NCBI GenBank assembly: GCA_003211535.1
Contig: QCSJ01000010.1
Location: 1 to 35,433 of the forward strand
Reading direction: 5' to 3'
Origin: Synechococcus sp. AG-670-A05
GTDB lineage: Bacteria; Cyanobacteriota; Cyanobacteriia; PCC-6307; Cyanobiaceae
Length of the DNA stretch: 35,433 nucleotides
Part shown: in pieces, positions 15,026 to 20,768 of the stretch
How the letters are laid out: each line of letters begins with the position of its first letter
How positions within the stretch are numbered: position 1 is the first letter of the stretch
The notes under the pieces: generated by a model
Databases searched by the model: none
What the model was told of the DNA's origin: nothing
The model's input: the letters and a program-made list of their open reading frames with translations, nothing else
Program-made: the position numbers and the translations under genes

Positions 15026-15589
15026 ATGGCGCCCCTGCCGTCGCCGGAACCGTTTGAACTGTTGGAAACGGTGGAAGCCGTCGACGCTCGCAAGATCCGC
15101 TTCGAGCGAAACCGGATCAAGCTGCCGATGGGGGTGGAGGCCACCTTCGGGATGATCCGCCACCCCGGCGCCTCCCTGGCGGTGCCGATCACCGATGACG
15201 GCAATGTAGTGCTGCTGCGGCAATACCGCTTCGCGGTGCAGGCGCGTCTGCTGGAGTTCCCCGCCGGAACCCTGGAGGAGGGAGAGGATCCGCTGGAATC
15301 GATGCAGCGGGAACTGGGCGAGGAGGCGGGCTACAGCGCGGCGCGTTGGGATGCCCTGGGTCCGATGCTGCCCTGCCCGGGCTACTCCGATGAGGTGATC
15401 CAATGCTTCCTGGCCCGTGAGCTCACCCCTTTGGAGAACCCACCTGCGGGCGATGACGATGAAGACCTGGAGGTGGTATTTATGACCCCTAAGGATCTCG
15501 ATGCCCGGCTTGGATCCGGTGATGAATGGCTGGATGGCAAGAGCGTCACCGCCTGGTATCGCGCCAAACAGCTCCTGGGGCTGGGATGA
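15026..15589 (+). CDS. Nudix hydrolase, ADP-ribose pyrophosphatase type
   Basis: This 187-residue protein has a complete Nudix box: Gly81-x5-Glu87-x7-Arg95-Glu96-Leu97-x-Glu99-Glu100-x-Gly102. The residues before it (VVLLRQYRFAVQARLLEFPAG) are typical of ADP-ribose/ADP-sugar pyrophosphatases, which split nucleotide-diphosphate sugars. An acidic patch, DDDEDLE, lies near residue 150. The stop overlaps the photolyase start (ATGA), so the two are coupled, which hints at housekeeping of damaged or signalling nucleotides alongside DNA repair. The exact substrate is inferred from the family. Confidence 0.9.
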   Translation: MAPLPSPEPFELLETVEAVDARKIRFERNRIKLPMGVEATFGMIRHPGASLAVPITDDGNVVLLRQYRFAVQARLLEFPAGTLEEGEDPLESMQRELGEEAGYSAARWDALGPMLPCPGYSDEVIQCFLARELTPLENPPAGDDDEDLEVVFMTPKDLDARLGSGDEWLDGKSVTAWYRAKQLLGLG

Positions 15590-17019
15590 CGACCACACGC
15601 GTTCTGTTCTGGCACCGCCGCGACCTGCGTCTGGCGGACAACCTCGGTCTGGCGGCCGCGGCGGAGATCAGCCCGGCGGTCACCGGGGTCTACGTGCTCG
15701 ATCCGCAGCTGCTTCATCCGCCGGAGCATCTGCCGCCGATGGCACCGGCACGGCTGTGGTTTCTAATTGAGAGCCTGCTGGAACTGCAGCAGCGCTGGCG
15801 CGAGGCCGGCAGTCGCCTGCTCGTGCTAGAGGGCGATCCCGTGGCGCTGCTGCCGCAGCTGGCTGATCGGATCGGTGCGGAAGCGGTGGTCTGGAACAAG
15901 GATGTGGAGCCCTATGCCCGCGAGCGGGATCGGCAGGTGGCCCGTCAGCTGCAGGCCGATGGCCGCAAGTTGGTGGTGGATTGGGACCAGCTGCTGATCG
16001 CCCCTGAGCTGCTCAAGACCGGTGGTGGCGATCCCTATCGGGTTTACGGCCCTTTCCTGCGCAACTGGCGCGGTCAGGTGCAGGCGAAGCAGCCCAGCGC
16101 CGTTGCCGCTCCCACTGGGTTGGTGGATCTGGCCCCGGAGCTCGTCCCACAGGGGAACGCACTGGAGGCCCTGCGGGACAGCCATGGGTTCAAGGGCACC
16201 GAGATCTGTCCCTGTCGCCCCGGCGAGGCGGCGGCCCTGGAGCAACTCATCACCTTCTGTGATGGCGCCCTATTCGGCTACGAGCCCGACCGCAACTTCC
16301 CCGGCACCGCCGGCACCTCCTATCTGAGTGCGGCCCTGAGTATGGGCACCCTCAGCCCCCGCCAGGCCTGGTGTGCCGCTCAGGAGGCCCGCGAGCAGGC
16401 CCGCAGCGAGGAGCAGCTGCAGGCCATCACCATCTGGGAGCAGGAGTTGTGCTGGCGCGAGTTCTACCAGCAGGCCCTGTTCAATTTTCCGGAACTGACG
16501 GATGGCCCTTACCGCGAGCAGTGGCGCCGCTTCCCCTGGGAGAACAACGAAGACTGGTTTGACTTCTGGAAGGAGGGCCAGACTGGCATGCCGATCATCG
16601 ATGCGGCGATGCGTCAGCTCAACCAGACCGGCTGGATGCACAATCGCTGCCGCATGATAGTGGCGTCGTATCTGGTGAAGGATCTGATCTGCGACTGGCG
16701 CTGGGGTGAGCGCGCCTTCATGGGACTGGAGGTGGATGGCGATCTGGCGGCCAACAACGGCGGCTGGCAGTGGAGCGCCAGCAGCGGCATGGATCCCAAG
16801 CCCCTGCGCATTTTCAACCCTGCCACCCAGGCCTCCAAGTTCGATTCAGCCGGCGACTACATCCGCCAGTGGGTGCCGGAACTGCGCCATGTGAACACCA
16901 AGGATCTGCTCAGTGGTGAGATCGGACATCTCGACCGTAGGAATTATCCGGAGCCTCTTGTGAATCACAAAACCCAGCAGGCCAGGTTCAAGGCGCTTTA
17001 CGCGACCATCCGCTCATGA
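15586..17019 (+). CDS. phrA: DNA photolyase (class I CPD type, full length)
   Basis: This 477-residue photolyase should repair cyclobutane pyrimidine dimers with blue light. The N-terminal antenna domain begins VLFWHRRDLRLADN. The C-terminal FAD domain shows GTAGTSYLSAALSMGTLSPRQ, the ELCWREFY motif, TGMPIIDAAMRQL, TGWMHNRCRMIVASYL and GDLAANNGGWQWSASSG followed by DPKPLRIFNP. Length and motifs match the well-studied Synechococcus elongatus enzyme with a deazaflavin antenna, though the antenna type is inferred. I chose the ATG at 15586 because it overlaps the Nudix stop. The 3' end overlaps the DegT-family gene by 22 bases. Confidence 0.94.
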   Translation: MTTTRVLFWHRRDLRLADNLGLAAAAEISPAVTGVYVLDPQLLHPPEHLPPMAPARLWFLIESLLELQQRWREAGSRLLVLEGDPVALLPQLADRIGAEAVVWNKDVEPYARERDRQVARQLQADGRKLVVDWDQLLIAPELLKTGGGDPYRVYGPFLRNWRGQVQAKQPSAVAAPTGLVDLAPELVPQGNALEALRDSHGFKGTEICPCRPGEAAALEQLITFCDGALFGYEPDRNFPGTAGTSYLSAALSMGTLSPRQAWCAAQEAREQARSEEQLQAITIWEQELCWREFYQQALFNFPELTDGPYREQWRRFPWENNEDWFDFWKEGQTGMPIIDAAMRQLNQTGWMHNRCRMIVASYLVKDLICDWRWGERAFMGLEVDGDLAANNGGWQWSASSGMDPKPLRIFNPATQASKFDSAGDYIRQWVPELRHVNTKDLLSGEIGHLDRRNYPEPLVNHKTQQARFKALYATIRS

Positions 17020-18240: not shown

Positions 18241-18834
18241 TTAAGCGGATCTGCCGAACCACTCCGGCTCCTGTCCGGGGTTCCATTTCACGTTGCAGCC
18301 CACCGAGGCGGTCTGGTCGGGGTTGACGGGATCTCCCTTCAGCACCGCATCCAGGGCGGCCCGCAGGTCAATGCCGTTGAGGGGCACTTCATTGCTGGGG
18401 CGGCTGCCATCCAGCTGGCCGCGATAGCGCAGGCTCTGCACGCCTTCGCCATCGGGTGAGAACAGGTAGAACTCCGGCGTGCAGGCAGCTCTGAGAGCTC
18501 GGGCCAGGGTTTGCTGCTCATCCAGCAGGTAGGGAAAGCTCCAGCCGTGGCGCCGGGCCTGATCCGCCAGCTGCTCCGGGCCGTCCTGGGGATGGGTGAT
18601 CAGGCTGTTGCTGCTAACGCCGAACAGTTGCACCCGATCGCCGAAGTCGTCGTCCAGCCGGGTGAGTTCCGGCTCAATGTGCTTCACGAACGGGCAGTGG
18701 GCACATATCACCATCAGCAGCACTGGCTGTTCATTCAGGTCAGCGTTGCTGATGCTGCTCCCCGCGACCGCCGGTAGTGAGAACGGCGGCAGGTGGGTCT
18801 CCAGAGCCAGCATCGTGGACGGTGTGAGGGCCAT
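18241..18834 (-). CDS. Thioredoxin-fold redoxin (AhpC/TSA-like)
   Basis: This 197-residue protein has a thioredoxin fold, with the redox site Cys44-Ala-His-Cys47 in MVICAHCPFVKHIEPEL. Homologous redoxins usually read N/C-H-C at this place. A third conserved cysteine, Cys180, lies in the C-terminal GCNVKWNPGQEPEW motif that marks this subgroup. There is no signal peptide, so it is cytosolic. Its partner is unknown. It is upstream of the DegT-type gene with a 10-base gap, and the latter's cysteine-rich loop makes a redox link worth considering, but that is speculation. Confidence 0.87.
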   Translation of the reverse strand: MALTPSTMLALETHLPPFSLPAVAGSSISNADLNEQPVLLMVICAHCPFVKHIEPELTRLDDDFGDRVQLFGVSSNSLITHPQDGPEQLADQARRHGWSFPYLLDEQQTLARALRAACTPEFYLFSPDGEGVQSLRYRGQLDGSRPSNEVPLNGIDLRAALDAVLKGDPVNPDQTASVGCNVKWNPGQEPEWFGRSA

Positions 18835-18881
18835 GGCGATTCCTGCAGGTCCGTCGGGTTGCCATCAGGATGGCCGCCTGT

Positions 18882-18890
18882 CGAGGAAAG
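18882..18890 (+). promoter_or_regulatory. Ribosome-binding site deciding the lipoprotein start
   Basis: The purine-rich CGAGGAAAG lies just before the ATG at 18893. It supports that ATG over the longer open frame that reaches back to 18596 on top of the opposite-strand redoxin gene. Confidence 0.6.
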
Positions 18891-18892
18891 CG

Positions 18893-19393
18893 ATGCGGCG
18901 CGGGCTGGCCATGGCAGGGGTGATGCTGCTGCTCAGTTGTTCGGCGCCGGCGGAACCCCCCAGCTGGCGCGTGATGCCATTGCAGCGGTACTCCCCCAAT
19001 GACGGGTTGGCGGTCGTCAACCAGCCCGATGGCTACGGACTTCACATCTTTCTGGAGACGGACACCAGCGATCCAGCGATATGCAGACCCCGTTGGCTGC
19101 CGGATCCAGCGCGTCTGTTCAACGGCAATGGCACCACCCCGTTCAGTTCCGGTCTGGCGACCCGTGCTGAGTTCTTTGCGGCGGTGGCCCGTAAGGACGT
19201 GACGCTGGCCCTGCAGCGGGAGTTGGAAGCCCTCTGTCAGCAGCGTTCGCCGGATGCCCGATGGGTCTGGAGCGAGCCACCGCGATCGGAGGCGGAGGTG
19301 GTTCCGGTACGCCTGCCAGCTCTGGAGCAAGGGGATCTGCTCACCAATCCCCTCGATGAGCTGGAGCGGGTGGAAGCCTTGCTCGGCAATTAG
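18893..19393 (+). CDS. Small predicted lipoprotein of unknown function
   Basis: This 166-residue protein starts with a basic MRRGLAM, a hydrophobic run, and a lipobox LLSC ending at Cys16, so it is probably lipid-anchored. The mature part is not a family I recognise. It has LQRYSPNDGLAVVNQPDGYG and a C-terminal acidic, Glu/Leu-rich stretch. No catalytic motif is visible. The ribosome-binding site at 18882-18890 supports the start. It is divergent from the redoxin gene and convergent with the antenna-domain gene, with which it shares the four bases TTAG. Confidence 0.75.
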   Translation: MRRGLAMAGVMLLLSCSAPAEPPSWRVMPLQRYSPNDGLAVVNQPDGYGLHIFLETDTSDPAICRPRWLPDPARLFNGNGTTPFSSGLATRAEFFAAVARKDVTLALQRELEALCQQRSPDARWVWSEPPRSEAEVVPVRLPALEQGDLLTNPLDELERVEALLGN

Positions 19394-19830
19394 CCGGCTG
19401 CTGAGTAGCCCTCCCAGACCACAGGCTCCGCTTCGCGCCAGTAGCGGCTGAAGCGCCCCAGCCGTGGTGGCCGTGGCAGCTCCACGAAGGCATCGGGTTC
19501 CAGTTCCTGCAGAGGCAGCTCCGCTTCGATGGCATTGGCGATACGTTGCAGGCGGGGATCCACGGCGGTGCTGGTCACCACGCCATCAGCGTCATGGCGC
19601 TGCGCGAAGGCGATCACTTCAGAGGCGACCTCGCCCTTGCGCAGGGTTAGCGGAAGCTCTAGTGCGTTTTCGTAAAGAAAACCAAGCCGCTTGCGGCTGA
19701 TGCGTTGTTGCTGGATCCAGAGCGTGTCAAACACGAACAGCGCTGATGCCTCAGGCCAGGCCCGCAGGGCTGGGTTGGCGGGGCCAAGAGCTTCCTCGTG
19801 CACCCAGAGAATCGGTCGTTGCAGGTTCAT
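19390..19830 (-). CDS. Photolyase/cryptochrome N-terminal alpha/beta (antenna) domain as a separate protein
   Basis: This 146-residue protein resembles only the N-terminal Rossmann-like domain of photolyases. It opens with PILWVHEEALGPANPAL, in the place of the classic WFRRDLRLxDNPAL. It continues with SALFVFDTLW, then LGFLYENALELPLTL, and the segment EVIAFAQRHDADGVVTS, which matches the usual helix-strand order. It ends where the FAD domain would normally begin. The partner FAD domain is encoded by the gene immediately upstream in transcription (stop at 19848, 17-base gap), so the two halves are separate and in reversed order. Function as a two-part light-driven enzyme or sensor is inferred. 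Confidence 0.78.
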   Translation of the reverse strand: MNLQRPILWVHEEALGPANPALRAWPEASALFVFDTLWIQQQRISRKRLGFLYENALELPLTLRKGEVASEVIAFAQRHDADGVVTSTAVDPRLQRIANAIEAELPLQELEPDAFVELPRPPRLGRFSRYWREAEPVVWEGYSAAG

Positions 19831-19847
19831 CGGTCTTTTGGAATAAG

Positions 19848-20768
19848 TCAGCGCTTAGGGCGGGCCAGGGCCGCGTTTCCACCCCCCTTGCTTTGCTGGC
19901 GGTTGTTCGCCCGCCGGTCTCGGCGGTTGCGATCGTTGCCCTTGTCCCGGATCGACGGCATCGGCGCGAACAGCTGGTTCTCCAGCTGTTCGTAGCTCCC
20001 TTCAAACGGGCACTGGGCTGCGCTGGGGCAGCCATCGCAGTAGCGGCCCTCGCTGTAGCGCTCCAGGTTGCTGCGGTTGAAGAAGTAGGGCTTGTGGCTG
20101 AAGGTGCTGGCCACCCACTGCCAGCTCAGGTGGTTGCTGGCCGGATCGCCATCCAGCAGGTGCTCCAGGAACCAGTCGGCACCGGCCTTCCAATGCACAC
20201 GGCGCCAATGCACCAACCATGCGGCCATCCACATCCGGGCATGGTTGTGCAGCCAGCCGGTGCTCACCAGTTGGTCGCGGAAGCCATCCATGCAGGCCAG
20301 CCCTGTGGTGCCATCCCGCACATCAGCAGGCAGCTCCCGGACATAAGCGCCGCTGTCGTGGCCGGTTTTGAAATCCTCCTGGTCGTCATGGATGCCGTCG
20401 CCCAGATCGAGCCACATCCGCTGCCAGAAGTCGCGCCAGCCCAGCTCGTTGATCAGTTTCGCGCCATCGTCCCGCTTGCGGATCCGCTGAAACACGGCAT
20501 TACGCACCTGCGCCAGCGTCAGAACCCCATGGCGGATGTAAGGCGAGAGGCCGGTGACGGCACCGTCGAGGTGATTGCGACTCTTGGCGTAACGGCCCGG
20601 CTGAACGCGGGCGAGCTGGTCGTCAGCAGCCTCTCGCCCCCCGCGGATCGGGCTGAGGGGTCCCTCGGCCTGAGGGAACGCATCCGCCAGCAGTTGTTCC
20701 AGGGCCTCCCGGGAGGAAAAGTCACGTGGCAGATCACCGCTGATCGGGGGTGAAGGGGCTCTGGACAC
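19848..20768 (-). CDS. Photolyase/cryptochrome FAD-binding domain as a separate protein, with possible Fe-S cysteines
   Basis: This 306-residue protein corresponds to the C-terminal FAD half of photolyases. Visible motifs are TGLSPYIRHG (72-81), ELGWRDFW (108-115), TGWLHNHARMW (170-180), DGDPASNHLSWQWVAST (206-222) and KPYFFNRSNLERYS (226-239). Cys159 (TGLACMDGF) and Cys244-x-x-Cys247 with Cys253 (YCDGCPSAAQCPF) match in spacing and context, as I remember them, the four 4Fe-4S ligands of FeS-type bacterial photolyases such as PhrB. A Lys/Arg-rich tail follows. The start is a GTG at 20768, since no ATG fits. The antenna half is the next gene downstream. Cluster binding is a prediction. Confidence 0.82.
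   Translation of the reverse strand: MSRAPSPPISGDLPRDFSSREALEQLLADAFPQAEGPLSPIRGGREAADDQLARVQPGRYAKSRNHLDGAVTGLSPYIRHGVLTLAQVRNAVFQRIRKRDDGAKLINELGWRDFWQRMWLDLGDGIHDDQEDFKTGHDSGAYVRELPADVRDGTTGLACMDGFRDQLVSTGWLHNHARMWMAAWLVHWRRVHWKAGADWFLEHLLDGDPASNHLSWQWVASTFSHKPYFFNRSNLERYSEGRYCDGCPSAAQCPFEGSYEQLENQLFAPMPSIRDKGNDRNRRDRRANNRQQSKGGGNAALARPKR

Follow-up and report, generated by a model that had tools for sequence, protein, structure and literature searches.

The stretch of DNA analysed here, called the window, comprises 35,433 nucleotides (nt) of Synechococcus sp. AG-670-A05 (assembly GCA_003211535.1, contig QCSJ01000010.1, positions 1 to 35,433) and contains a photolyase-type gene pair whose two domains are encoded separately. 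The gene phr4 (19848..20768, minus strand, GTG start) encodes a protein of 306 amino acids (aa), proposed to be the catalytic subunit with the flavin adenine dinucleotide (FAD) domain. The second gene, phr5 (19390..19830, minus strand, ATG start), encodes a protein of 146 aa, which is proposed to be an antenna-type α/β (Rossmann-like) subunit on the basis of hhalign, AlphaFold2 and Foldseek. The TGA stop codon of phr4 and the ATG of phr5 are separated by 17 nt (19831..19847, minus strand), with a frame offset of 2 and both A and T present. The canonical bilobal layout, a single chain with an N-terminal antenna domain, is not found at this locus. Instead, two open reading frames (ORFs) lie on one strand with the FAD half first, as the first-pass annotation, made from the sequence alone, had read them.

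The pair is real but already known. It is identified with phr4/phr5 of Haney et al. 2022, who described the reversed order and the iron-sulfur (Fe-S) cysteines (PMC9426592). According to that paper, phr4/phr5 occur in all marine Synechococcus examined and in half of six Cyanobium strains, two Cyanobium strains carry a fused form named phr6, and the gene complement of Nostoc punctiforme is the same. The pair described here shares with the published one the two ORFs, their reversed order, the existence of a fused form, and a phr3 gene several genes away. In the literature searched, which excluded the two key NewPHL/SPL papers, only Haney et al. were seen to describe the pair. New in this analysis are an order-wide tally of split and fused loci, the co-occurrence across the phylum including unlinked copies, members in Deinococcus and a planctomycete, and the grouping with NewPHL-like proteins. 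The unlinked copies, the fusion count and the non-cyanobacterial members are not mentioned in the available part of the published account.

Phr4 matches Pfam FAD_binding_7 (PF03441) with an E-value of 3.4e-22 and 79.3 bits, above the cut-off of 27. Phr5 alone matches DNA_photolyase (PF00875) with an E-value of 2.6e-4 and 21.4 bits, under the 26.6-bit cut-off, and a single-sequence search of the PDB returned no photolyase at E ≤10. A profile built from 137 relatives of Phr5 was compared with 30 canonical cyanobacterial antenna domains, among them that of the window's own photolyase, and the two aligned over 130 columns (E 1.6e-12, hhalign probability 97.7). Of 20 column-shuffled controls, none did better than E 0.059, and the reversed alignment gave 0.32. 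The AlphaFold2 model of Phr5 has a mean predicted local distance difference test (pLDDT) score of 91.9, and Foldseek places photolyases on top (probability 1.00, E 5.5e-5). Universal stress proteins, which have a common fold with Phr5, follow from about rank 11. The earlier assignment of the 146-residue protein as an antenna domain is upheld by the profile check, which came out for the photolyase family.

The arrangement was followed through 200 genomes of the order, one per species, which were searched with the window's Phr4. Some match at E 0.001 is present in 186 of them, and 89 contain a strong locus, with E-values no higher than 6.5e-77; the next match after these stands at 8.7e-29. All 89 strong loci encode both halves on the same strand with the FAD half followed by the antenna half, 69 of them as split genes and 20 as a fusion, and the FAD half comes first in all 20 fusions too. 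Because order and strand are the same in 89/89 loci, the arrangement is not due to chance.

At the level of the phylum, 292 genomes were sampled, with up to 13 candidates per genome scored for Phr5 and up to 8 for Phr4. Strong Phr5 is present in 58 genomes and strong Phr4 in 59. Both occur together in 58, Phr4 occurs alone in one (G225), and Phr5 occurs alone in none. The scores are well separated, with strong Phr5 at 70.5 bits or more and the next at 26.4, and strong Phr4 at 229 bits or more and the next at 119.8, besides a truncated second copy at 181.7 bits. In the 58 genomes with both, the genes are adjacent in 33, lie 316 to 1868 nt apart in seven, and are unlinked in 18. Ten of the unlinked cases are on one contig, 0.48 to 4.9 Mb apart when measured along the contig (on a circular chromosome, the shorter way round could be less); eight are on different contigs of drafts. 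The flanks of the 18 unlinked Phr5 genes, taken to at least 1.5 kb per side, contained no Phr4. Two irregular loci were also recorded. In L142 (G418), the Phr4 match is divided between two open frames, one covering profile positions 12-235 and the other 230-278, with a phr5 match downstream; the break is possibly a frameshift or a sign of a decayed copy. L143 (G450:C1:290500-296500) is a second, truncated phr4-phr5 pair (Phr4 185-284, Phr5 1-116) in a genome that also has a full-length pair.

Near-constant co-occurrence, non-neighbouring copies and occasional fusion are best explained if the two proteins are subunits of one complex. Judged from sequence, phr4 and phr5 are quite probably translated separately into the two subunits of an obligate Fe-S photolyase that would perform light-driven repair of ultraviolet (UV) lesions. 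Phr4 would be the catalytic subunit, carrying FAD and, to judge from four cysteines, a putative Fe-S cluster. Phr5 would be a free-standing antenna-type domain that docks on Phr4 and covers the FAD site like a lid, and it might also carry a light-harvesting chromophore; together the two would use light to repair UV lesions. Between a repair enzyme and a light sensor of two subunits, the options named by the first-pass annotation, the repair enzyme is the best-supported reading, given the near-perfect co-occurrence, the natural fusions and the unlinked copies. Further points in favour are the columns D206, D208, N212 and W216 of Phr4, which mostly match canonical photolyases, and the lowered UV-C survival of the phr4 mutant (PMC9426592). 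The structure of a natural fusion (L073, 450 aa), predicted from an alignment that combined 20 fused with 45 separate sequences, has a mean pLDDT of 91.1 and a predicted template modelling (pTM) score of 0.90. Such a score suggests that the two domains are placed confidently relative to each other, be it in the canonical way or not. The interface check named by the first-pass annotation was thus made indirectly, on this fusion. On one FastTree with several weak nodes, a Fitch count gives at least five changes between fused and split and at least seven between linked and unlinked states. The count was made on the smallest clade with all cyanobacterial Phr4, which has 135 tips, including three fused Deinococcus and one planctomycete.

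Several observations weigh against the two-subunit photolyase. The Phr4-like protein of G225, a single chain in which the four cysteines are absent, lacks a Phr5-type match but carries a C-terminal extension of its own. The co-occurrence tallies related genomes and not independent events. The phr4/phr5 region improved the survival of E. coli after UV-C to about the same extent with and without light (PMC9426592), and this light-independent rescue speaks against simple photolyase action. In the literature searched, no report of a complex, a chromophore or a repair assay for the pair was found, and none of the residues tested shows chromophore binding by Phr5. Lastly, 44 of the 69 split phr5 starts in the order are without a Shine-Dalgarno (SD)-like motif, and the window's phr5 has no clear one.

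That the pair is a (6-4) photolyase, as Haney et al. predicted on the strength of the Fe-S cysteines and of the mutant's response to UV-C, is considered rather unlikely here. The putative Fe-S cysteines of the window's Phr4 are C159, C244, C247 and C253, with the same spacing as C169, C254, C257 and C263 of strain RS9916 (PMC9426592). Every one of the 89 loci of the order, that of the window among them, has these cysteines, as do, in other cyanobacteria, 22 of 24 loci with linked and all 18 with unlinked genes, and four of four Deinococcus sequences. The (6-4) prediction is supported by this constancy, the four cluster cysteines being shared with the Fe-S bacterial (6-4) photolyases (FeS-BCP, such as PhrB, 4dja), by a profile match of Phr4 to PhrB, although a weak one (E 8e-5), and by the phr4 mutant, which was sensitive to UV-C while the UV-B doses applied left it unaffected (PMC9426592). 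However, FeS-BCP are single chains, and Phr4 is far nearer to the class I cyclobutane pyrimidine dimer (CPD) photolyase of Anacystis nidulans (1owl, E 1.2e-25), and a closest affinity to PhrB-type enzymes was not found. An Fe-S cluster does not imply (6-4) specificity either, as SPLs, whose ancestral form is said to have contained an FeS cluster, are described as photolyases for CPDs (PMC9649867).

The active site points in the same direction as the profile match. At four active-site columns, Phr4 has E, W, N and M in 84 of the 89 loci of the order and in 37 of 42 other cyanobacteria, and the same residues are found in all 22 NewPHL-like rows and in 27 of the 30 canonical ones. E, W, N and M at those columns mark CPD photolyases. 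With the canonical class I enzymes (1owl and phr3 of the window), the pair shares both domains and the FAD and active-site columns; the canonical enzymes differ in being one chain with the antenna first and in having the four cysteines in 0/30 rows. This canonical set contains 29 distinct rows, as the window's own photolyase is counted twice. Overall, the class I affinity, the active-site residues, the grouping of Phr4 with NewPHL-like proteins in the tree discussed below, and the description of NewPHLs/SPLs as enzymes repairing CPDs in single-stranded DNA (PMC13274461) lean, not strongly, towards CPD rather than (6-4) repair by the pair.

A role as a light sensor (cryptochrome) or regulatory protein instead of a repair enzyme is improbable. 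Light-independent rescue in E. coli would suit such a role, as would the presence of a complete photolyase close by in the window. In RS9916, however, the phr4 mutant had a UV-C survival 20-30 times below that of control cells and an equal UV-B survival (PMC9426592). The mutant phenotype is thus UV-C sensitivity, and the active-site residues are kept in most members. The sensor function offered as an option by the first-pass annotation finds no positive support beyond the E. coli result. Its other suggestion, that the pair is probably not the main CPD repair enzyme, fits the UV-B data, as phr2 and phr3 mutants were affected by UV-B and the phr4 mutant was not (PMC9426592).

Whether the two ORFs yield one frameshifted protein or two paired proteins was a question left by Haney et al. 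(PMC9426592). A programmed frameshift or readthrough joining phr4 and phr5 into one Phr6-like chain is very improbable, even though 20 of 89 loci are single-gene fusions, both ORFs have the same relative frame in 16 of the 69 split loci, and the spacing is precisely kept among the strains of Haney et al. (PMC9426592). In the one-genome-per-species sample, neither spacing nor frame is conserved: the distance from the phr4 stop to the phr5 start ranges from -7 to +30 nt, the relative frames 0, 1 and 2 occur 16, 9 and 44 times, and 17 spacing/frame classes can be distinguished. With such spacing and all three frames, no single recoding event can join the halves. On this ground, and because the genes are unlinked in 18 of 58 genomes, frameshifting or readthrough was rejected as a general mechanism. 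The window does not show the published "seven G-C base pairs", its two ORFs being separated by 17 nt that include A and T, and a gap of 7 nt occurs in three of the 69 split loci. The seven-G-C spacing is therefore taken as an over-generalised description and not as a defining feature. Of the 69 split phr5 starts, 25 have an SD-like motif upstream, compared to 102 of the 838 ATG/GTG codons that lie internally in the frame of phr4. Spacing, frame and SD data agree with separate, perhaps coupled, initiation but not with a single conserved site of recoding. To the extent that sequence can decide, two obligate subunits are favoured over a frameshifted single chain, and the unlinked copies and variable frames make two subunits the likely answer to the published question. 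Species with phr4 and phr5 far apart allow a clean test of this answer. Two published inferences are worth checking, namely the conserved seven-base spacing and the (6-4) specificity deduced from the Fe-S cysteines. Finally, that Phr5 is an unrelated small Rossmann protein, for instance one like a universal stress protein, merely adjoining phr4 is barely credible.

NewPHL/SPL proteins are described as having an inverted topology, with the FAD domain first and the N-terminal antenna absent (PMC13274461), and S. elongatus is described as carrying an SPL gene. Phr4 shares with this class, which includes Prochlorococcus Phr7, the N-terminal catalytic domain without a preceding antenna, as well as the phylogenetic grouping; a further likeness would be the FeS cluster described for the ancestral SPL (PMC9649867). 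In a FastTree, Phr4, Deinococcus, planctomycete and NewPHL-like rows (158) are placed apart from 30 canonical rows with a support of 0.716, and the inner node with the G225/Comamonadaceae type has a support of 0.924. The tree is a single run with several weak nodes, and one of the 30 canonical loci (L227) was left out. The 22 NewPHL-like rows differ from Phr4 in being single chains with a C-terminal extension and in that none has the four cysteines. Rows L175-L184 are probably Prochlorococcus Phr7, judging in part by the description of Haney et al.

The C-terminal extensions were compared with Phr5 by profile. The alphaproteobacterial NewPHL-like extension matches Phr5 at E 8.8e-5 (probability 59.8, 44 columns), with shuffles at 0.022 or worse. 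The Comamonadaceae/G225 set reaches E 0.0069, the Bacteroidota set 0.024, and the pooled set 0.0085, with shuffles at 0.1 or worse. Homology of the Prochlorococcus-like Phr7 extension to Phr5 is not detectable by profile comparison (E 0.25). Going by these matches, the NewPHL-like C-terminal extension may be the same domain as Phr5. If it is homologous, Phr4/Phr5 could be a NewPHL-type enzyme cut in two, which is put forward as a lead. A broader proposal, advanced tentatively and with less than even confidence, is that Phr4/Phr5 is the type of widespread obligate two-subunit photolyases in which a free antenna protein can be encoded anywhere, and that it preserves or re-creates a stage before or outside the antenna-first fusion. 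If true, antenna and catalytic parts of photolyases would be exchangeable as subunits, and the same domain would have been joined at opposite ends in different lineages. A photolyase with a separate antenna subunit would also be a natural system for studying antenna attachment, exchange and evolution. On the Asticcacaulis plasmids L194, L195 and L196, the NewPHL-like gene lies between a gene for an NAD(P)-binding or an FAD-dependent oxidoreductase and a DUF3429 gene (3/3), and on the Novosphingobium plasmid L192 a DUF3429 gene adjoins the NewPHL-like gene on the opposite strand.

Relatives of the pair outside the cyanobacteria were found on four Deinococcus plasmids. Three of them encode fused forms (D. 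psychrotolerans, 457 aa; D. wulumuqiensis, 472 aa; D. sp. AJ005), while the D. sp. QL22 plasmid encodes a split pair with a 4-nt overlap. The planctomycete Botrimarina hoheduenensis (L187) also has a split pair, and its Phr4-like protein is without the four cysteines. The pairing is therefore independent of the Fe-S cluster. Viral carriage was considered and dropped. Two scans of viral contigs returned no confirmed relative of Phr4 or Phr5, and the phage collection yielded 10 records of partial Phr4 matches with 26-33% identity, none of which covers 80% of Phr4.

As a candidate chromophore of Phr5, 8-hydroxy-5-deazaflavin (8-HDF) was considered and leaned against for the window's genus. A search of the genome of the window, which is 83% complete, detected no CofG, a subunit of FO synthase. 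CofH has no match in this genome and weak matches (E 7e-4 to 8e-4) in G013, G014 and G021, the three other genomes of the genus among those listed, so that 8-HDF looks unlikely in the genus. Among 101 genomes of the family, CofH is strong (E 1.5e-97 or better) in 12 and weak or absent in the rest, with no match in 34. Given this distribution, the supply of 8-HDF in picocyanobacteria is worth checking, also for the "8-HDF type" phr3.

The complete photolyase that the first-pass annotation placed less than 3 kb from the pair is real and lies 2.4 kb away. This phr3-like gene (15586..17019, plus strand; its ORF opens at 15526, with an ATG at 15586) is assigned by Pfam and NCBIfam to the canonical class I / 8-HDF type. 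Both Pfam domains are matched (antenna E 3.5e-46, FAD E 5.2e-74), and the score of 647.7 bits against TIGR03556 is below the cut-off of 884.6. Its likely start at 15586 is overlapped by 4 nt by the ORF 15026-15589 (plus strand), by eye a putative Nudix hydrolase. A paper on the UV hyper-resistance of Prochlorococcus MED4 names a nudix-photolyase operon in its title (PMC2955971). On the strand opposite phr5, the ORF 18596-19393 (plus strand) meets phr5 tail to tail with an overlap of 4 nt.
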